Assembly: GCA_002709955.1 (NCBI GenBank)
Contig: PAQY01000016.1
Coordinates: 1 to 64,000 of the forward strand
Length of the DNA: 64,000 nt
DNA from: Rhodospirillaceae bacterium
GTDB lineage: Bacteria > Pseudomonadota > Alphaproteobacteria > UBA8366 > Aestuariispiraceae
Direction: 5' to 3'
Position 1 is the first letter of the stretch. Every line of letters starts with the position of its first letter. Under the pieces are notes generated by a model. It had not been told where the DNA came from and did no database searches. It worked only from the letters and a program-made list of their open reading frames with translations. Below are positions 4,489-60,959 of the stretch, one piece after another. Position numbers and translations under genes: made by a program.

Positions 4489-5286
4489 GTGGCTGTTGTG
4501 GAAAACATGGAACGCTGTCCGGAAGAATGGATTGCCCTTGCGCATCGCCTGGCAGACATCGCAAGGCCGATTGCACAACAGTATTTCCGCACACCTTTGG
4601 ATATCGTTTCCAAGGCGGATGACAGCCCCGTTACGATCGCGGATCGCTCTATCGAAGCCGCGATGCGGGCAGAAATCGAAAAAACCTTTCCGGATCATGG
4701 AATCCTGGGGGAGGAATATGGATCCACCCGGCTGGATGGGCCCGCTGTTTGGGTGCTGGATCCGATTGATGGCACAAAGGCGTTCATTTCCGGTATGCCG
4801 TTGTTTGGCACCCTGATCGCCTGTTGTGTCGATGGTGTGCCAATATTGGGTGTTGTCGATCAGCCAATTCAGAAAGAACGCTGGATTGGGGCGCTGGGCT
4901 ACCCGACGACCTATAACGGGGCGGCTGTTCAAACATCCCGGAAATCAGATTTGACGCAGGCGATATTCTATACAACGGATGCTGATTTCTTTCTGAATGG
5001 CCCGAACGAGGCTGGTTTTCTGGCGGTGAAAGAGGCGGCGGCCCTGACCCGGTACAGCGCTGATTGCTATGCTTTCGCACTGATCGCGTCGGGATCGGTC
5101 GATCTGGTCATTGAAACCGGGTTGAAGCCCTATGATTACTGTGCCCTTGTGCCGGTGATTATCGGGGCAGGGGGAACGATGACGGACTGGAACGGTCAGC
5201 GGTTAACCATTCACTCAGATGGCAGTGTCATTGCGGCGTCCAGCACAGATTTGCGCGATGCTGCCCTTGGGGTGTTTTTACCCTGA
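4489..5286 (+). CDS. hisN: Histidinol-phosphatase, inositol monophosphatase family
   Basis: A 265-residue Mg-dependent phosphatase of the IMPase fold. The metal-binding motifs are visible: GEEYG near residue 74, DPIDGTKAF near 91-99, and the C-terminal KPYDYCALVPVI that replaces the usual WDxAA. The motif set and length fit the HisN-type histidinol-phosphatase that dephosphorylates L-histidinol phosphate in many alphaproteobacteria; an inositol-1-phosphatase role cannot be excluded from sequence. It starts at a GTG at 4489 with AGG just upstream. No other his genes are in the window. Confidence 0.85.
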   Translation: MAVVENMERCPEEWIALAHRLADIARPIAQQYFRTPLDIVSKADDSPVTIADRSIEAAMRAEIEKTFPDHGILGEEYGSTRLDGPAVWVLDPIDGTKAFISGMPLFGTLIACCVDGVPILGVVDQPIQKERWIGALGYPTTYNGAAVQTSRKSDLTQAIFYTTDADFFLNGPNEAGFLAVKEAAALTRYSADCYAFALIASGSVDLVIETGLKPYDYCALVPVIIGAGGTMTDWNGQRLTIHSDGSVIAASSTDLRDAALGVFLP

Positions 5287-5409
5287 CAGTGCGCCTGATG
5301 GCCCAATTCTGAGGTATTCGCGCCGCAACGCTTGCGCTTTTGATGATCTGCGCCACATTAATATCTTAAGTCGGATTGAATAACGGCATCACCGGGAGAC
5401 TTTGGATTT

Positions 5410-7260
5410 ATGCTGTGCACCCTGAAACACGCCTGTTTCGCCTTTTTTCTAATCGGATATGCTTTTGGACCGTCGGTCGGACATGCACAAGAGGTCGTCC
5501 GCTCCCATGGCTGGGCCATTCACAGCCAGATTAGATATCCCAGTGATTTTAAACATTTCGACTATGTAAATCCGGATGCGCCGAAGGGCGGGACGGTGGT
5601 GTTTGGTGTGCCAAACACATTTGATTCCCTGAACCCTTTTATCATAAAGGGCAATCCAGGGGCGGGCAGTTCCGCCATATACGATACCCTGATGACGACC
5701 AGCATGGACGAACCCAACAGCGAATATGGCCTGTTGGCGGAATGGATTGAGGTTGAGACCGACGCGCAGGGCGTGATCACCGATGTTCGGTTTAAATTGC
5801 GCGATGCGGCGCGATTCCATGATGGGGTTCCGGTGCGCGCCAGCGATGTCATCTGGACGTTTAACACCTTGCGGGAAAAGGGCAGCCCGCTGTATCGCTA
5901 TTACTATGCCAATGTCGAAGAAGTCACAGCCCTGGATGAGTTGACGGTACAGTTTCACATGGTGCCTGGCGAGAATGTGGAAATGCCGGTGATTTTGGGT
6001 CAATTGCCCGTGCTGCCGGAACATTATTGGCAGGACAAAGAGTTTGATAAAACCACTTTGGAACCGCCTTTGGGGTCTGGTCCTTATAAAATTAGTGCGG
6101 TGCGCCCCGGTCAATCCATTACGATAGAGCGCGTGTCGGATTATTGGGGCAAGGACCTGCCGGTAAATGTCGGTAAGGATAATTTTGGCACCATCCGCTA
6201 TGAGTATTTCCGGGATCGGACGGTTATGCTGGAGGCGCTGAAGTCAGGCGCGATAGATTGGCGGTCTGAAAATTCATCAAAGTTCTGGGCGACGGCCTAT
6301 GACGTTCCTGCCGTCAGGGATGGACGGTTGATCAAGCGCGAATTTACCCATGAACGCGGCACCGGCATGCAGGGTTTCGTCATGAATACCCGCAAGCCGA
6401 TTTTCAATGATGTAAAAGTGCGCGAAGCCCTGACCTATCTGTGGGATTTCGAATGGGTCAACAAGACCATCATGTATGATGCCTATGCCCGTACCGACAG
6501 CTATTTTGAAAATTCTGATTTAGAAGCGACGGGATTGCCCGGCCCGGAAGAATTGAAGGTGCTGGAGCCATTGCGCGATCAATTGCCCCCGCGCGTGTTT
6601 ACCGAAGATTACGCGCCGCCCGTCACCGATGGGTCCGGGAACAGCCGCCAGCACTTGCGCACCGCCCTTGAAATGCTGAAAGAAGCAGGGTGGGCTATCC
6701 AGGATGGGGTGCTGACACAAACGTCAACAGGCGCGCCGTTTGAATTTGAGGTACTGTTGAATCAGGACCTGTTCACCCCCCACACCCAGGCATTGGTGCG
6801 GGGTGTCGAACGACTGGGCGGCAAGGTATCCATTCGTGTTGTTGATGCCGCACAGTATCAGTCACGGGTGGATAGTTTCGATTTTGATATGATCATCGGC
6901 AATTGGGGACAGTCCCAGTCCCCCGGCAATGAGCAGCGGGAATTTTGGAGCAGCGCAGCGGCGGATCGACAAGGCAGCCGCAACACGGCTGGAATCAAGA
7001 ATCCCGCCATCGACACCTTGATTGAAGACCTGATCGCATCCCCCACCCGGGATGTATTGGTGGCGCGGACCCATGCGTTGGATCGTGCGTTGTTGTGGAA
7101 TTTCTATGTCATTCCCATGTATCACAGCAAGGTCGACCGGATAGCCTATTGGAACCGGTTCGGTTTTCCGGACGAAACCCCAATGCAGGGCACGTCGCCT
7201 AATTTCTGGTGGGTTGATCCAGACCTGGATTCGGCCCTTCAGCGCAACGGGCGAAAATAA
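5410..7260 (+). CDS. yejA: Peptide ABC transporter, substrate-binding protein YejA
   Basis: A 616-residue periplasmic solute-binding protein family 5 member. It begins with a signal peptide cleaved near GHAQEV and continues with the family signature of a long bilobal protein, for example DAPKGGTVVFGVPNTFDSLN and FRLRDAARFHDG-type segments. YejA-type proteins are longer than OppA/DppA and bind peptides, including antimicrobial ones. It opens the yejABEF set; the permease gene starts 50 bases after its stop. A spacer of about 120 bases precedes it, with GGGAG ahead of the ATG. Confidence 0.92.
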   Translation: MLCTLKHACFAFFLIGYAFGPSVGHAQEVVRSHGWAIHSQIRYPSDFKHFDYVNPDAPKGGTVVFGVPNTFDSLNPFIIKGNPGAGSSAIYDTLMTTSMDEPNSEYGLLAEWIEVETDAQGVITDVRFKLRDAARFHDGVPVRASDVIWTFNTLREKGSPLYRYYYANVEEVTALDELTVQFHMVPGENVEMPVILGQLPVLPEHYWQDKEFDKTTLEPPLGSGPYKISAVRPGQSITIERVSDYWGKDLPVNVGKDNFGTIRYEYFRDRTVMLEALKSGAIDWRSENSSKFWATAYDVPAVRDGRLIKREFTHERGTGMQGFVMNTRKPIFNDVKVREALTYLWDFEWVNKTIMYDAYARTDSYFENSDLEATGLPGPEELKVLEPLRDQLPPRVFTEDYAPPVTDGSGNSRQHLRTALEMLKEAGWAIQDGVLTQTSTGAPFEFEVLLNQDLFTPHTQALVRGVERLGGKVSIRVVDAAQYQSRVDSFDFDMIIGNWGQSQSPGNEQREFWSSAAADRQGSRNTAGIKNPAIDTLIEDLIASPTRDVLVARTHALDRALLWNFYVIPMYHSKVDRIAYWNRFGFPDETPMQGTSPNFWWVDPDLDSALQRNGRK

Positions 7261-54824: not shown

Positions 54825-55347
54825 TCTTGTGAAACTGACACTTCTACAAATCGTCCCGTTCTCATCCTGAAGCGGCGCTGTAAGGATGGTACGTGCAGCA
54901 GGCTCCCCCTTCGAGACGCTACGTTCCTCAGGGTGAGGGTGAATCTGTAAGCACCATCGTCACCCCGGACCTTGATCCGGGGTCCAGGGCGGGAAGCGCG
55001 ATTGGTGCGTGTGGCCCTGGGCACCCGCCTACGCGGGAGAGGCGGGGCTTGTTGAAGATTTACCGCAAAGGGCGCGGAGAAGGCGCAAAGGGCGCTGAGG
55101 GTATGATATTTGTTGCTGTCACCCCGGACGTGATCCGGGGTCCAGAGCAGCGGGTGCGATTGGTGTGTGTGGCCCTGGACACCCGCCTGCGCGGGTGCGA
55201 CGGGGTTTGATTTACCGCAAAGGGCGCGGAGAAGGCGCAAAGGGCGCTGAGGGTATGACATTTGTTGCTGTCACCCCGGACGTGATCCGGGGTCCAGAGC
55301 AGCACGTGCGATTGAAACGTTTGTACCAGGGGGCTCAGAAAATGGGT
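54825..55347. repeat. Repeat-rich spacer with tandem composite units
   Basis: No gene is seen in this 523-base gap. A 104-base unit at 55057-55160 is repeated at 55209-55312 (period 152) with almost no change; a third, partial copy of the same modules begins before 55057. Each unit carries a GCAAAGGGCGCGGAGAAGGC block, a palindrome of the type CACCCCGGA-TCCGGGGT, and the block CACCCGCCTGCGCGGG. A CTCATCCTGAAG/CCTCAGGGTGAG arm pair lies at 54860-54946. The same modules occur at 48.3-48.6 kb. Confidence 0.8.
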
Positions 55348-56592: not shown

Positions 56593-57073
56593 GGGGGGAA
56601 GGAGCGGTTTACGAAGAATGATTGGGTACCGTTGTGTGACGTTATGCGTCTTCGCAACGCTTTCCAGAACGTGTTAAAGCCTTAACCAGCGAATCTGCTA
56701 CTTTTTCTGGCAAAATCAGAGTTCCGACCTTTGTTCAAGTCCCCATTTTGTATTGCCAAGGGCTTACTATCATTGGCACCTTCATATAGGCTGTTTTGTA
56801 TGGGTTGCCTAATTTAATGAGTATATTTTTAATCATGAATGGTACGACATTGTTTTATCCAATCGTTTTTCTTGGCTGTAGCTTAATCCGGCAATGTGGT
56901 GGCCCATGACGATAAATGTGCTCGTCTTGGTCTTTGAACTCACCAGAAAAACGGGGTTATGATGGATGGACACAGATTTTTTATTGCGGGGAAGAGAAAC
57001 AAAAGTTTAAGCATTGTATTGTAACGGCCAAATTACTCTGCTTCCTCGCTTCTACCTATCATAAAATACTGAA
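56593..57073. other. AT-rich spacer without a supported gene
   Basis: About 480 bases at the left edge of an AT-rich island. I see no supported gene. A 30-residue hydrophobic frame (56817-56909) and a longer frame overlapping the viperin gene 3' end were considered and not accepted. The words GTTCAAGTCCCC at 56733-56744 look like a tRNA T-loop but pairing fails. Confidence 0.4.
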
Positions 57074-58024
57074 CTACTTATGTGTTTTGTATCGCGCAGT
57101 AAACTTTTCTGGACAAAATTTAATGTCCTTAAAAGCTGCCCTTGGCCCAACGTTTAGAATAGGTTGGCTATACACGTAACCGCGATCATTCTGTGAGTTT
57201 TGGAAAAAACGACCATAAGGGTCGACCATAATATAAGATTGCTCCATGTCATTGTTGTCTTCGATTGTTATTATTGATTCAAATGCTTTATGGCGTTTCA
57301 AGAATGATTTAAATTCATCATCTGTAACTGATAAATCGGTCGTGGTTACAGGCAGCATTCGCATTATTTTCCACCTATCTGGTCGCGCTCTTTTAATTAG
57401 TTCAGATAGGTCCTCTGATGAATTCACAGAATTGACCACGGTGTTAATTTTGATCTTTATATTTAAATTTTTGCGTCTGATCCGGTCGATCAAGCTAAGT
57501 ACATCATCAATGGTCAAACATTTCCCACTTTTGTCCATTCGACCAATTTGAGAGTTTATCGTGGTACTTACCGAATCAACACTAAGCCCTATGATATCTA
57601 AACCGTTCGCACACTCAGTAATGACATCTGGTGAACTGCCGTTTGTGATAAGCGAAACATTGAATCCAATTTGTTTTGCTTGAAACACTATTCTTTGTAG
57701 GGAATTTCTCAGAATAGTAGGCTCTCCACCAGCCAAACTTAGACGCTGAGAACTCCATGAAAGACTTTTCTGCAGTGCATTGGGCGTCGCGCCATTGAAG
57801 TAGTTGTATAAACATTTAAGAAGGTTCTCTGTTGCTGTGTTATCTCGCCATAATTCTCTTTTTTGGTCAGTTTTTGCCCATTTTGCATAACAGTACTTAC
57901 ACTTGAAATTGCATGGTTGAGTAATATGCCAATTTAGCACTAACTCCTCAATTTTTTGTACTATTTTTGTGGGTTCATTAACTATAAGTTTATTTTGATT
58001 ATGCCGTATTATATTGCTTTCCAT
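57074..58024 (-). CDS. Prokaryotic viperin homologue (radical SAM)
   Basis: A 316-residue radical SAM enzyme matching the viperin family, which converts a nucleoside triphosphate into a 3'-deoxy-3',4'-didehydro form that stops viral RNA synthesis. The [4Fe-4S] site is CNFKCKYC (Cys 38, 42, 45). LNWHITQPCNFKCKYC parallels human viperin, as do SLAGGEPTI, IIGLSVDSVS, KINTVVNSVN, DRWKIMRMLPV, DEFKSFLKRH and a C-terminal ILNVGPRAAF. It keeps the viperin C-terminal region that binds the nucleotide. ATG at 58024 has GAGG six bases upstream; the longer start at 58099 is less likely. Which nucleotide it uses is not predictable. Confidence 0.85.
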   Translation of the reverse strand: MESNIIRHNQNKLIVNEPTKIVQKIEELVLNWHITQPCNFKCKYCYAKWAKTDQKRELWRDNTATENLLKCLYNYFNGATPNALQKSLSWSSQRLSLAGGEPTILRNSLQRIVFQAKQIGFNVSLITNGSSPDVITECANGLDIIGLSVDSVSTTINSQIGRMDKSGKCLTIDDVLSLIDRIRRKNLNIKIKINTVVNSVNSSEDLSELIKRARPDRWKIMRMLPVTTTDLSVTDDEFKSFLKRHKAFESIITIEDNNDMEQSYIMVDPYGRFFQNSQNDRGYVYSQPILNVGPRAAFKDIKFCPEKFTARYKTHK

Positions 58025-58102
58025 TTTGACCTCTTCTAACAGTTTTTGTTGACTCAACTGCTTTTCTGTGATTATTTCGAAATATACAAAAAGGACCATT
58101 AA

Positions 58103-58132
58103 GTCAAAATTGCATAAATAGGATAATTTGAC
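58103..58132. promoter_or_regulatory. Inverted repeat between viperin and HTH genes
   Basis: GTCAAAATT (58103-58111) and AATTTGAC (58125-58132) form an inverted repeat with a one-base bulge. It covers a TTGACT (minus strand) that could be the -35 of the viperin gene, and TTGACA (58128-58133) in the HTH gene direction. It is a candidate operator for the HTH protein. Confidence 0.45.
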
Positions 58133-58135
58133 AAA

Positions 58136-58498
58136 ATGGAAAAAAATGCAATAACTTTCTCAATGGTGGTTGCAAAATTTCTAAACGACATCCGGGAATC
58201 TTCGGGCCTTTCTCAATCCGAATTTCTTGAGAGGTTGGAAATGTCTCAATCATCTTGGTCAAGATTAAATCGTGGATTGTCATTTTTGACGTTGGAAGAG
58301 CTAAGGATTGCTTGCAAACTTCTAAACGTCGATGCATCCAACATTATAAAAAGCGCAGAAATCGCAATTGAAAAATTAAAAAATCAAGAAAATATAGAAG
58401 TTTTGTCTGCCAAAAAAGCTATTGATAATAAAACTGTTGCAACAACAATTGTTGCTGCCGCCGCACTTGCATTTCTCTTAGCACGCATATCAAAATAA
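58136..58498 (+). CDS. HTH (XRE-type) protein with a C-terminal membrane helix
   Basis: A 120-residue protein, divergent from the viperin gene and 111 bases from it. Residues about 14-60 form a helix-turn-helix (FLNDIRESSGLSQSEFLERL, then MSQSSWSRLNRGL). A charged helical linker follows, and the last 20 residues are a hydrophobic helix (TTIVAAAALAFLLARIS), so the protein is probably anchored in the membrane with the DNA-binding part in the cytoplasm. AT-rich like its neighbour. The start could also be the ATG at 58163. Confidence 0.7.
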   Translation: MEKNAITFSMVVAKFLNDIRESSGLSQSEFLERLEMSQSSWSRLNRGLSFLTLEELRIACKLLNVDASNIIKSAEIAIEKLKNQENIEVLSAKKAIDNKTVATTIVAAAALAFLLARISK

Positions 58499-58523
58499 TT
58501 GTTAGTTGGAGCTAAACTTATGC

Positions 58524-60959
58524 TCACCCCCGCTCCACAAAACTCGCCACAACAGTTTTCTTCCCGGCCTTATCGAACTCAATTGAGAGGCGGTCGCCGT
58601 CTATGGCGGTGATGGTGCCGGGGCCGAATTTTTGGTGGAAGACGCGCTCTCCTGTGCCGAAATCGTGGTCGGTGCTGCTGCTGTAGCTGGCATCGATCAC
58701 CGGTGCGCGGGTTTGGCTGAGGCCGCGCTGTTTCAGGCGTTGCCAGCCAGGGCCGCCGCCCTGAGAAGAATAGGTGGGGGCCGAGTAAGTGGAACCAGAA
58801 TCGAAGTCTGAGGCTTTCGCACCGCCGAAGCCGCCACCAGTCGTGCCGCCCCCGAAGCTGCTGCTGCGGCCATAGCCGACCTGGGTGAAGGCAGCGCGGT
58901 CTTCGGCGCGGCCGCCACCAATGCCGCCATAGACGCCGCGGTCGGCCTCGATCAGGGCGTGTTCCTGGGGCAATTCATCGATGAAGCGCGACGGCAGGGC
59001 GGCATTCCAGGAGCCGTGAATGCGGCGGTTGGCAGCGAAGCTGATTTCACAGCGGCGCTTGGCGCGGGTGATCCCGACATAGGCCAGGCGGCGTTCTTCT
59101 TCCAGCCCGGCCAGGCCGCTTTCATCCATGGCGCGCTGATGGGGGAACAGGCCTTCTTCCCATCCCGGCAGGAAGACGGTCTCAAATTCCAGACCTTTAG
59201 CAGCATGCAGCGTCATGACCGAGACCATGGGGCCGACCGTGTTGGATTCGACCTCCATCACCAGGCTGATATGTTCCAGGAAGGCGGGCAGGTCGTCGAA
59301 TTCCTGCATGCCCGACAGCATTTCCTTGAGGTTTTCCAGCTTGCCAGCGGCTTCCGGCTTTTTCGACTGCTTCCAGAAATCGGTATAGCCGCTTTCTTCC
59401 AGCACGGTTTCGGTCAGTTCCACATGGTCAATGCCTTCGGACAGGCGGCGCCAGCGGTCGAACATGTCCATCGCGGCGAACAGCTTGCTGCGGGCAGCCG
59501 CCTTCAATTCGTCGGTTTCCACCATGCGTTGGGCGGTAATGGACAGCGGCAGGCCTTGCGCCCGGGCGGCCTTGTGCAGCGCTTGCAGTGTGGTTTTGCC
59601 GATGCCGCGCGCGGGCTTGTTGATGATCCGCTCAAAGGCCAGATCATCGGCGGGCTGGTGGATCACCCGCAGATAGGCGATGGCGTCGCGGATCTCTTCG
59701 CGCTCATAGAACCGGGGGCCGCCGACAACGCGATAGGGAATGCCCAGGGTGATGAAGCGTTCTTCGAATTCGCGGGTCTGGAAGCCAGCGCGGACCAGGA
59801 TAGCGATTTCGTCCAGCGGCTCGTTCTTCAATTGCAGCGCTTCGACCTCATCGGCGATCAGGCGGGCTTCCTCGTCCCCATCCCACAGGCCGCGCACGCG
59901 CACCTTGTCGCCATCATTGCGGTCGGTCCACAGGGTCTTGCCCAGTCGCCCCTCGTTCTTCTCAATCAGGCCCGAAGCCGCGCCGAGAATATGGGGGGTG
60001 GAGCGATAGTTCCGTTCCAGCCGCACGACCTTCGCGCCGGGAAAGTCCTTTTCAAAACGCAGGATGTTGCCAACCTCTGCCCCGCGCCAGCCATAGATCG
60101 ACTGATCATCATCGCCAACACAACAGATATTCTGGCTTTCGCCTTCCTTGCGGCCTTGGGCCAACAGGCGCAGCCAGAGATATTGCGAGACGTTGGTATC
60201 CTGATACTCATCGACCAAGATATATTGGAACAGATGGCGATAGCGCTCCAGCACTTCGGGGTGCTTGGTAAAGATCGTCAGATTGTGCAGCAGCAGATCG
60301 CCAAAGTCACAGGCATTCAGGGTACTAAGCCGCTGTTGATACTGGCGATAGATTTCCATCGCGCGGCCATTGGCAATGTCGCCGGACTCTGAGGCACTGA
60401 CACGCTCCGGGACTTGGCCCTTGTCCTTCCAGCGCTGGATGACATGGATCAGCATGCGGGCGGGCCAGCGCTTTTCGTCTACGCCTTCGGCTTCCAATAC
60501 CTGTTTCAACAGGCGGATCTGGTCGTCGGTATCCAGAATGGTGAAGCTGGATTTCAGGCCGACCAGTTCAGCATGTTTGCGCAGGATGCGGGTGCCCAGT
60601 GCGTGGAAGGTTCCCAGCCACATCCCCTCTGTCGCCGGGCCAACCAGATGGGCGACGCGCTCGCGCATTTCCTTGGCGGCCTTGTTGGTGAAGGTGACGC
60701 ACAGGATCTGATAGGGCTTGGCCTTGCCCTGATGCAGAATTTGCGCAAGCCGGGTGGTCAGCACGCGGGTCTTGCCGGTGCCAGCCCCTGCCAGTACCAG
60801 AACGGGTCCGTCAATTACCTCCACCGCCAGGCGCTGGGCATCGTTCAGAGTGTCCAGCCAGGGCGGCGGCGCGGAATTGCTGCGCCCCGGATAGGCGGGG
60901 GCTGGGCCGCTGGGCACAGCGGGGAAGTCGATATCGTCGTAATCCAATGGGTCTGACAT
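58524..60959 (-). CDS. pcrA: UvrD/PcrA-family ATP-dependent DNA helicase
   Basis: An 811-residue superfamily 1A helicase that unwinds DNA 3'-5' in repair and replication. Motif I VLAGAGTGKTRVLTTR near residue 52, motif Ia TFTNKAAKEMRERV, motif II FQYILVDEYQDTNV, motif III GDDDQSIYGWRGA, motif V VMTLHAAKGLEF and motif VI RRLAYVGITRAKRR are all present. The C-terminal 110 residues are Gly/Ser-rich and end in a Tudor-like segment. UvrD and PcrA cannot be told apart by sequence alone here. Its end is 26 bases after the HTH gene. Confidence 0.94.
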   Translation of the reverse strand: MSDPLDYDDIDFPAVPSGPAPAYPGRSNSAPPPWLDTLNDAQRLAVEVIDGPVLVLAGAGTGKTRVLTTRLAQILHQGKAKPYQILCVTFTNKAAKEMRERVAHLVGPATEGMWLGTFHALGTRILRKHAELVGLKSSFTILDTDDQIRLLKQVLEAEGVDEKRWPARMLIHVIQRWKDKGQVPERVSASESGDIANGRAMEIYRQYQQRLSTLNACDFGDLLLHNLTIFTKHPEVLERYRHLFQYILVDEYQDTNVSQYLWLRLLAQGRKEGESQNICCVGDDDQSIYGWRGAEVGNILRFEKDFPGAKVVRLERNYRSTPHILGAASGLIEKNEGRLGKTLWTDRNDGDKVRVRGLWDGDEEARLIADEVEALQLKNEPLDEIAILVRAGFQTREFEERFITLGIPYRVVGGPRFYEREEIRDAIAYLRVIHQPADDLAFERIINKPARGIGKTTLQALHKAARAQGLPLSITAQRMVETDELKAAARSKLFAAMDMFDRWRRLSEGIDHVELTETVLEESGYTDFWKQSKKPEAAGKLENLKEMLSGMQEFDDLPAFLEHISLVMEVESNTVGPMVSVMTLHAAKGLEFETVFLPGWEEGLFPHQRAMDESGLAGLEEERRLAYVGITRAKRRCEISFAANRRIHGSWNAALPSRFIDELPQEHALIEADRGVYGGIGGGRAEDRAAFTQVGYGRSSSFGGGTTGGGFGGAKASDFDSGSTYSAPTYSSQGGGPGWQRLKQRGLSQTRAPVIDASYSSSTDHDFGTGERVFHQKFGPGTITAIDGDRLSIEFDKAGKKTVVASFVERG

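Follow-up and report, generated by a model that had tools for sequence, protein, structure and literature searches.

A prokaryotic viperin and a divergent XRE regulator with a hydrophobic tail form a candidate horizontally acquired antiphage unit

Within the window (the whole 64,000-nucleotide stretch of DNA analyzed here), a prokaryotic viperin (pVip) gene stands head to head with the gene of a small XRE helix-turn-helix protein that ends in a hydrophobic tail. We read this pair as a two-gene, horizontally acquired antiphage unit composed of a pVip and a divergent, probably membrane-anchored XRE repressor, an interpretation to which we assign a probability of about 0.65. The divergent pairing occurs in three unrelated places, and we hypothesize that the regulator might sense infection at the membrane.

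The viperin gene (57074..58024, minus strand) encodes a 316-aa protein annotated, from NF038283, PADLOC, and an AlphaFold2 model, as a predicted radical SAM ddhNTP synthase. Its start was placed at the ATG at 58022-58024, which is preceded, at a distance of 5 nt, by AGAGG, a ribosome-binding-like sequence. A start at 58099, where an in-frame ATG lies farther upstream, would lengthen the protein to 341 aa and is less likely. An earlier reading of this DNA, made without database searches (the sequence-only reading), had proposed a viperin homologue on the basis of a CxxxCxxC motif and the landmarks KINTVVN, DRWKIM, DEFKSFLKRH, and ILNVGP. All of these were located, the cluster motif being C38-C42-C45 and the GGEP motif G99-G100-E101-P102, and the proposal itself was borne out. 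The protein scored 337.5 bits on NCBIfam NF038283, against a curated equivalog cutoff of 180, whereas MoaA models reached only about 54 bits against cutoffs of at least 284, so that a MoaA identity was rejected; other radical SAM families were likewise ruled out by family scores, viperin being the best family in the alignment to pVip and radical SAM families. PADLOC also called the protein a pVip (7.6e-95; pVip model PDLC02903), the model of kinase-unassociated pVips coming ahead of the kinase-associated one, and a kinase-linked pVip was discarded as there is no kinase gene inside the island.

Structural comparison led to the same family. The solved chains closest by sequence are viperins, and for the AlphaFold2 model (mean pLDDT, 87.9) all of the best 30 fold matches in the PDB are viperins (E values of 3e-23 to 7e-17), CTP-bound and UTP-bound mouse viperin among them, while the next family appears at 1e-11. 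An alignment of 14 viperins showed the cluster cysteines, GGE, K192, N194, W218, K219, S263, and Y264 to be invariant and the C-terminal block of viperins to be conserved in the window protein. The last six of these residues align with the mouse viperin of CTP-bound entry 6q2p, and we take them (KIN..., RWK, SY...) to be the viperin-specific nucleotide-site block. Since the score lies above the cutoff and viperins account for all 30 of the closest solved structures, sequence and modeled fold together identify the protein securely as a full prokaryotic viperin. Members of this family make ddhNTPs and act against phages (PMC10732462; PMC10865869), and by analogy the window pVip would do the same: using its [4Fe-4S] cluster and SAM, it would convert a nucleoside triphosphate to the 3'-deoxy-3',4'-didehydro form, and this nucleotide would halt RNA synthesis by phage polymerases.

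Both genes lie on an AT-rich island of about 1.5 kb (56998..58523) that holds no other gene and was delimited by GC content and by comparison with congeners. GC content is 0.34 to 0.39 in 500-bp windows across 56750-58499, compared to about 0.52 to 0.65 outside, in line with the earlier remark that the pair differs in composition from its flanks. On the left lies what remains of a DJ-1/PfpI-family gene (56642..56997, minus strand; named by eye), about residues 127 to 237 spread over two frames with internal stops, and on the right a uvrD/pcrA-type helicase gene (58524..60959, minus strand; also named by eye). Because the DJ-1-like gene is a decayed remnant in the window, the island ends near 56998 and 58523. 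Two congeners retain an intact copy of this gene at the same position, so that the island's left edge replaced its 5' half.

In five congeners, the interval between the 3' end of the helicase gene, which forms the fixed right edge, and the DJ-1/cupin/hydrolase side was found to contain other cargo or none. L093 carries a DUF2971 gene of 32 to 36% GC that matches PADLOC PDC-S31 (E value of 1.9e-59) and is a candidate phage defense gene; L094 has no insertion and an intact DJ-1/PfpI-like gene; L095 harbors two genes, one of 493 aa with a coiled coil and one that is Fic-like; L096 has genes of 425 and 218 aa without families; and the 431-aa gene of L097 weakly matches a TIR effector. By these comparisons the site behaves as an insertion hotspot with varying, defense-like cargo among relatives, which would make it, in this marine genus, a place to search for new defense systems. 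Among 42 further genomes of this order, none carried a pVip or a regulator gene, and the source genome contains neither a second viperin nor a second full-length copy of the regulator. Because the island is absent from congeners and the site-by-site comparison points to an insertion hotspot, its horizontal acquisition since the genus diverged is supported, and with it the transfer of a defense unit that the sequence-only reading had suggested. A 2.2-kb segment including the island is 100% identical in marine metagenome contig PAKU01000002.1 (L002), labeled Polycyclovorans. This case was rejected as an independent transfer, the flanks being the window's own chromosomal region at 96 to 98% identity, and because of this match the contig is probably misbinned. 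Elsewhere in the window, a cluster of repeated intergenic sequence was detected by BLAST repeat matches at 54890-55314, downstream of urease genes. The urease has its best matches, at 76%, in plasmid records of alphaproteobacteria, which suggests that the source is an alphaproteobacterium.

The partner gene (58136..58498, plus strand) encodes a 120-aa XRE regulator, assigned from HTH_31, hydropathy, homology, a family profile, and a structural model. Pfam HTH_31 matched it with 35.6 bits (cutoff, 27), and its C-terminal tail (residues ~100 to 118) has a mean Kyte-Doolittle hydropathy of 1.98 over the 19 residues starting at residue 100, the usual threshold for a membrane helix being 1.6. In the model, five helices make up the XRE domain, which a linker connects to a helix of low confidence at residues 101 to 119. 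An uncharged tail of 17 to 20 residues, at or near the C terminus, is kept in all three of the regulators found divergent from pVips, with hydropathy values of 1.98 to 2.33. Of the earlier description of a membrane-anchored HTH partner, the HTH domain and the hydrophobic tail were thus recovered, and the anchoring stands as a prediction: judged by its hydrophobicity, the tail probably anchors the regulator in the inner membrane. As the tail is alanine rich and modeled at low confidence, it could instead be an oligomerization helix.

This second view of the tail leads to a reading in which an ordinary XRE repressor that regulates its own gene, or a timer resembling controller (C) proteins, controls the viperin, uses its tail only for oligomerization, and senses nothing at the membrane. 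We regard it as plausible without being probable. The tail is indeed Ala/Gly-rich and its model of low confidence, and the best fold matches are small, soluble XRE regulators, led by the restriction-modification (R-M) controller C.BclI and ClgR, none of them with an E value below 0.001. Such controllers resemble the window protein in being a small XRE fold next to the defense gene that it would control, but the matched chains are about 75 to 80 residues long and lack a hydrophobic tail, and a soluble controller would not need the uncharged tail that all three divergent regulators retain above the membrane threshold. An R-M controller in the strict sense was rejected, since no R-M genes adjoin; the neighbors are, by eye, the uvrD-type helicase gene, a cupin-like gene, and the viperin gene.

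The two genes are separated by a shared intergenic region of 111 bp (58025..58135), expected from its position to hold divergent promoters. Under the preferred reading of a pVip with a membrane-anchored repressor, the XRE protein would most likely bind this region and repress both genes, so that the viperin promoter is likely regulated by the tailed protein. Repression would hold this costly enzyme at a low level until some change occurs, possibly at the membrane when the cell is infected. A search of the 111 bp for a palindromic operator gave none stronger than in shuffled sequence, and promoter-like sites were no more numerous there than in shuffles, with no strong promoter among them; both results count against the preferred reading. 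Going further, a membrane-tethered repressor might sense phage entry or membrane damage and then induce the viperin, as a module assembled several times; this extension is tentative, and we consider it rather unlikely. If true, it would amount to inducible, interferon-like control of viperins in bacteria by means of an exchangeable regulator module. To our knowledge, the switching-on of bacterial viperins is unstudied, and a rare regulator family that recurs beside viperins of different clades offers a concrete and testable candidate for such a switch.

Another arrangement would be a toxin-antitoxin-like pair, in which the HTH protein binds the viperin, keeps the enzyme inactive, and also represses its gene. 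XRE domains are frequent in antitoxins, the regulator gave weak matches to the Pfam Xre-like-HTH and NCBIfam PezA models, and HicA and RelE toxins associate with pVip loci (PMC10865869), so that HicA- and RelE-linked pVips, as well as kinase-linked ones (PADLOC models), are already known. The two genes are, however, divergent rather than in one operon, and no antitoxin model reached its cutoff (PezA, 21 bits versus 290), observations on which a type II antitoxin was rejected and which make such a pair improbable.

With respect to known systems, the window protein is like other pVips (NF038283, PDLC02903) in score, cluster motif, C-terminal block, and fold, while its locus differs in having no kinase link, no downstream hicA, and a divergent regulator with a tail. 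It shares with the pVip-HicA loci (classes 9 and 10, PMC10865869) a small gene beside the pVip, and the window pVip is 42 to 46% identical to pVips with hicA-like neighbors (L056, L089, L098, and L099). In those loci, however, the toxin lies in the same operon, whereas the window partner is a DNA-binding protein transcribed away from the pVip. PADLOC's defense-linked XRE regulators (capH of CBASS and HTH_VI) are likewise XRE proteins attached to defense systems, but their matches to the window regulator are weak and mostly confined to the HTH, and the window locus contains no CBASS or retron genes. In the open-access literature, which leaves out the original pVip paper, we found no membrane-tailed HTH protein beside a viperin or other defense genes.

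The partner had been singled out in the sequence-only reading as unusual, and members of the same family were found divergent from a pVip in two other bacteria, among pVip loci that had been chosen without reference to the regulator and were surveyed for neighbors. In L088, from another order of the same class, an XRE protein of 141 aa that also ends in a hydrophobic tail is divergent from a pVip only 35% identical to that of the window. In L153, which belongs to a different class within the phylum, a tailed XRE protein of 174 aa (156 aa with a later ATG as the start) is divergent from two viperins in tandem arrangement as a pair. One member of this pair, located between the intact viperin and the regulator (L153:6062-6928, minus strand), is a degenerate paralogue with the motif CPCSLRAC, GDEP in place of GGEP, and 63 bits on NF038283, possibly a pseudoenzyme subunit.

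In a tree of 29 viperins, placing the regulator takes three changes, and 0 of 200 bootstrap trees join the three regulator-linked pVips. The window and L153 pVips fall into one small group whose other members, L056 and L098, have hicA-like neighbors, and the L088 pVip belongs to a clade apart from it. The three regulator-linked pVips, as placed by this tree, are not one clade and neighbors differ within a group; the regulator therefore behaves as an exchangeable module.

End to end, the window regulator aligns with that of L163 at 32% identity over 119 aa (E value of 8e-21), which places it in a new, rare full-length family defined by an XRE domain, a linker, and a hydrophobic tail. Full-length members were present in 4 of 398 Pseudomonadota genomes, the source genome included, and in 1 of 298 genomes of the second class. 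Because both counts used a profile containing viperin-linked members, a control profile was built from only the three members unlinked to viperins (L163, L164, and L169). It recovered the window regulator (P0002) with 77.5 bits over positions 7 to 121 of 127, that of L153 (P0004) with 59.5 bits over positions 10 to 125, and that of L088 (P0003) with 58.1 bits over positions 25 to 121, as well as L138, which is also tailed (69.1 bits). The remaining XRE proteins searched stayed at or below 49.6 bits, and nearly all of their matches were confined to the HTH. By these alignments, the homology extends beyond the HTH through linker and tail. Family membership is least secure for L153, which reached 50.3 bits against a background of 49.4 on a profile that included P0002 and omitted P0003 and P0004. 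Single-sequence searches of plasmids and viral contigs with P0002 gave mostly HTH-only matches or none. On an Aeromonas veronii plasmid (L138:1849-3054), the tailed XRE regulator is divergent from a 198-aa hypothetical protein with a hydrophobic stretch.

These data bear on the possibility that the pairing is accidental, that is, two unrelated genes on one AT-rich import, with the HTH gene left over from the vector element. Of the pVip loci examined, only about one in ten has such a regulator; most are without one, and several of these have hicA-like, LRAT, kinase, or other neighbors. Family members are also found apart from viperins, with the L164 and L169 members adjoining housekeeping-type genes and that of L163 divergent from an LRAT-like gene (L163:4521-4867), apparently split. 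Against this, the regulator occupies the divergent position in 2 of 9 pVip genomes sampled without regard to it (G385, G116, G480, G580, G721, G816, G824, G953, and G994). The family is found in about 1% or fewer of genomes, and even at a density of ~2e-4 per gene, 100 times that observed, the chance of at least 2 of 9 would be about 1e-6, by hand arithmetic on a small sample. Since the family is rare, also lies divergent to pVips in another order and another class, and accompanies pVips that are not one clade, the pairing recurs and chance adjacency is very unlikely; we hold the accidental reading to be highly improbable.

Other viperin loci showed further arrangements. Annotated phages yielded no pVip; viperins were seen on viral contigs of 36 to 115 kb (L146-L151, around 4920-5810), near phage thymidylate synthase, Sak4-like, and DNA polymerase genes. 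The five included in the tree group together with full support as a single clade, the two that were scored reached 292 to 294 bits on NF038283, and none matched a viperin family in PHROGs. In plasmids of Moraxella and Acinetobacter, the gene directly upstream of the pVip encodes an LRAT-domain protein whose hydrophobic C terminus is rich in Gly and Ala (L057:5204-5872 and L058:5255-5923). In three loci, the gene divergent from the pVip encodes a protein without a known family, of 130 to 179 aa in L152:5983-6522 and L154:6341-6733 and of 955 aa in L155:2126-4993, which suggests that control genes in this orientation may be frequent next to pVips. Finally, in L087:687-4027 the pVip gene precedes a hicA-like gene of 74 aa, after which comes the gene of a 743-aa ankyrin-repeat protein.
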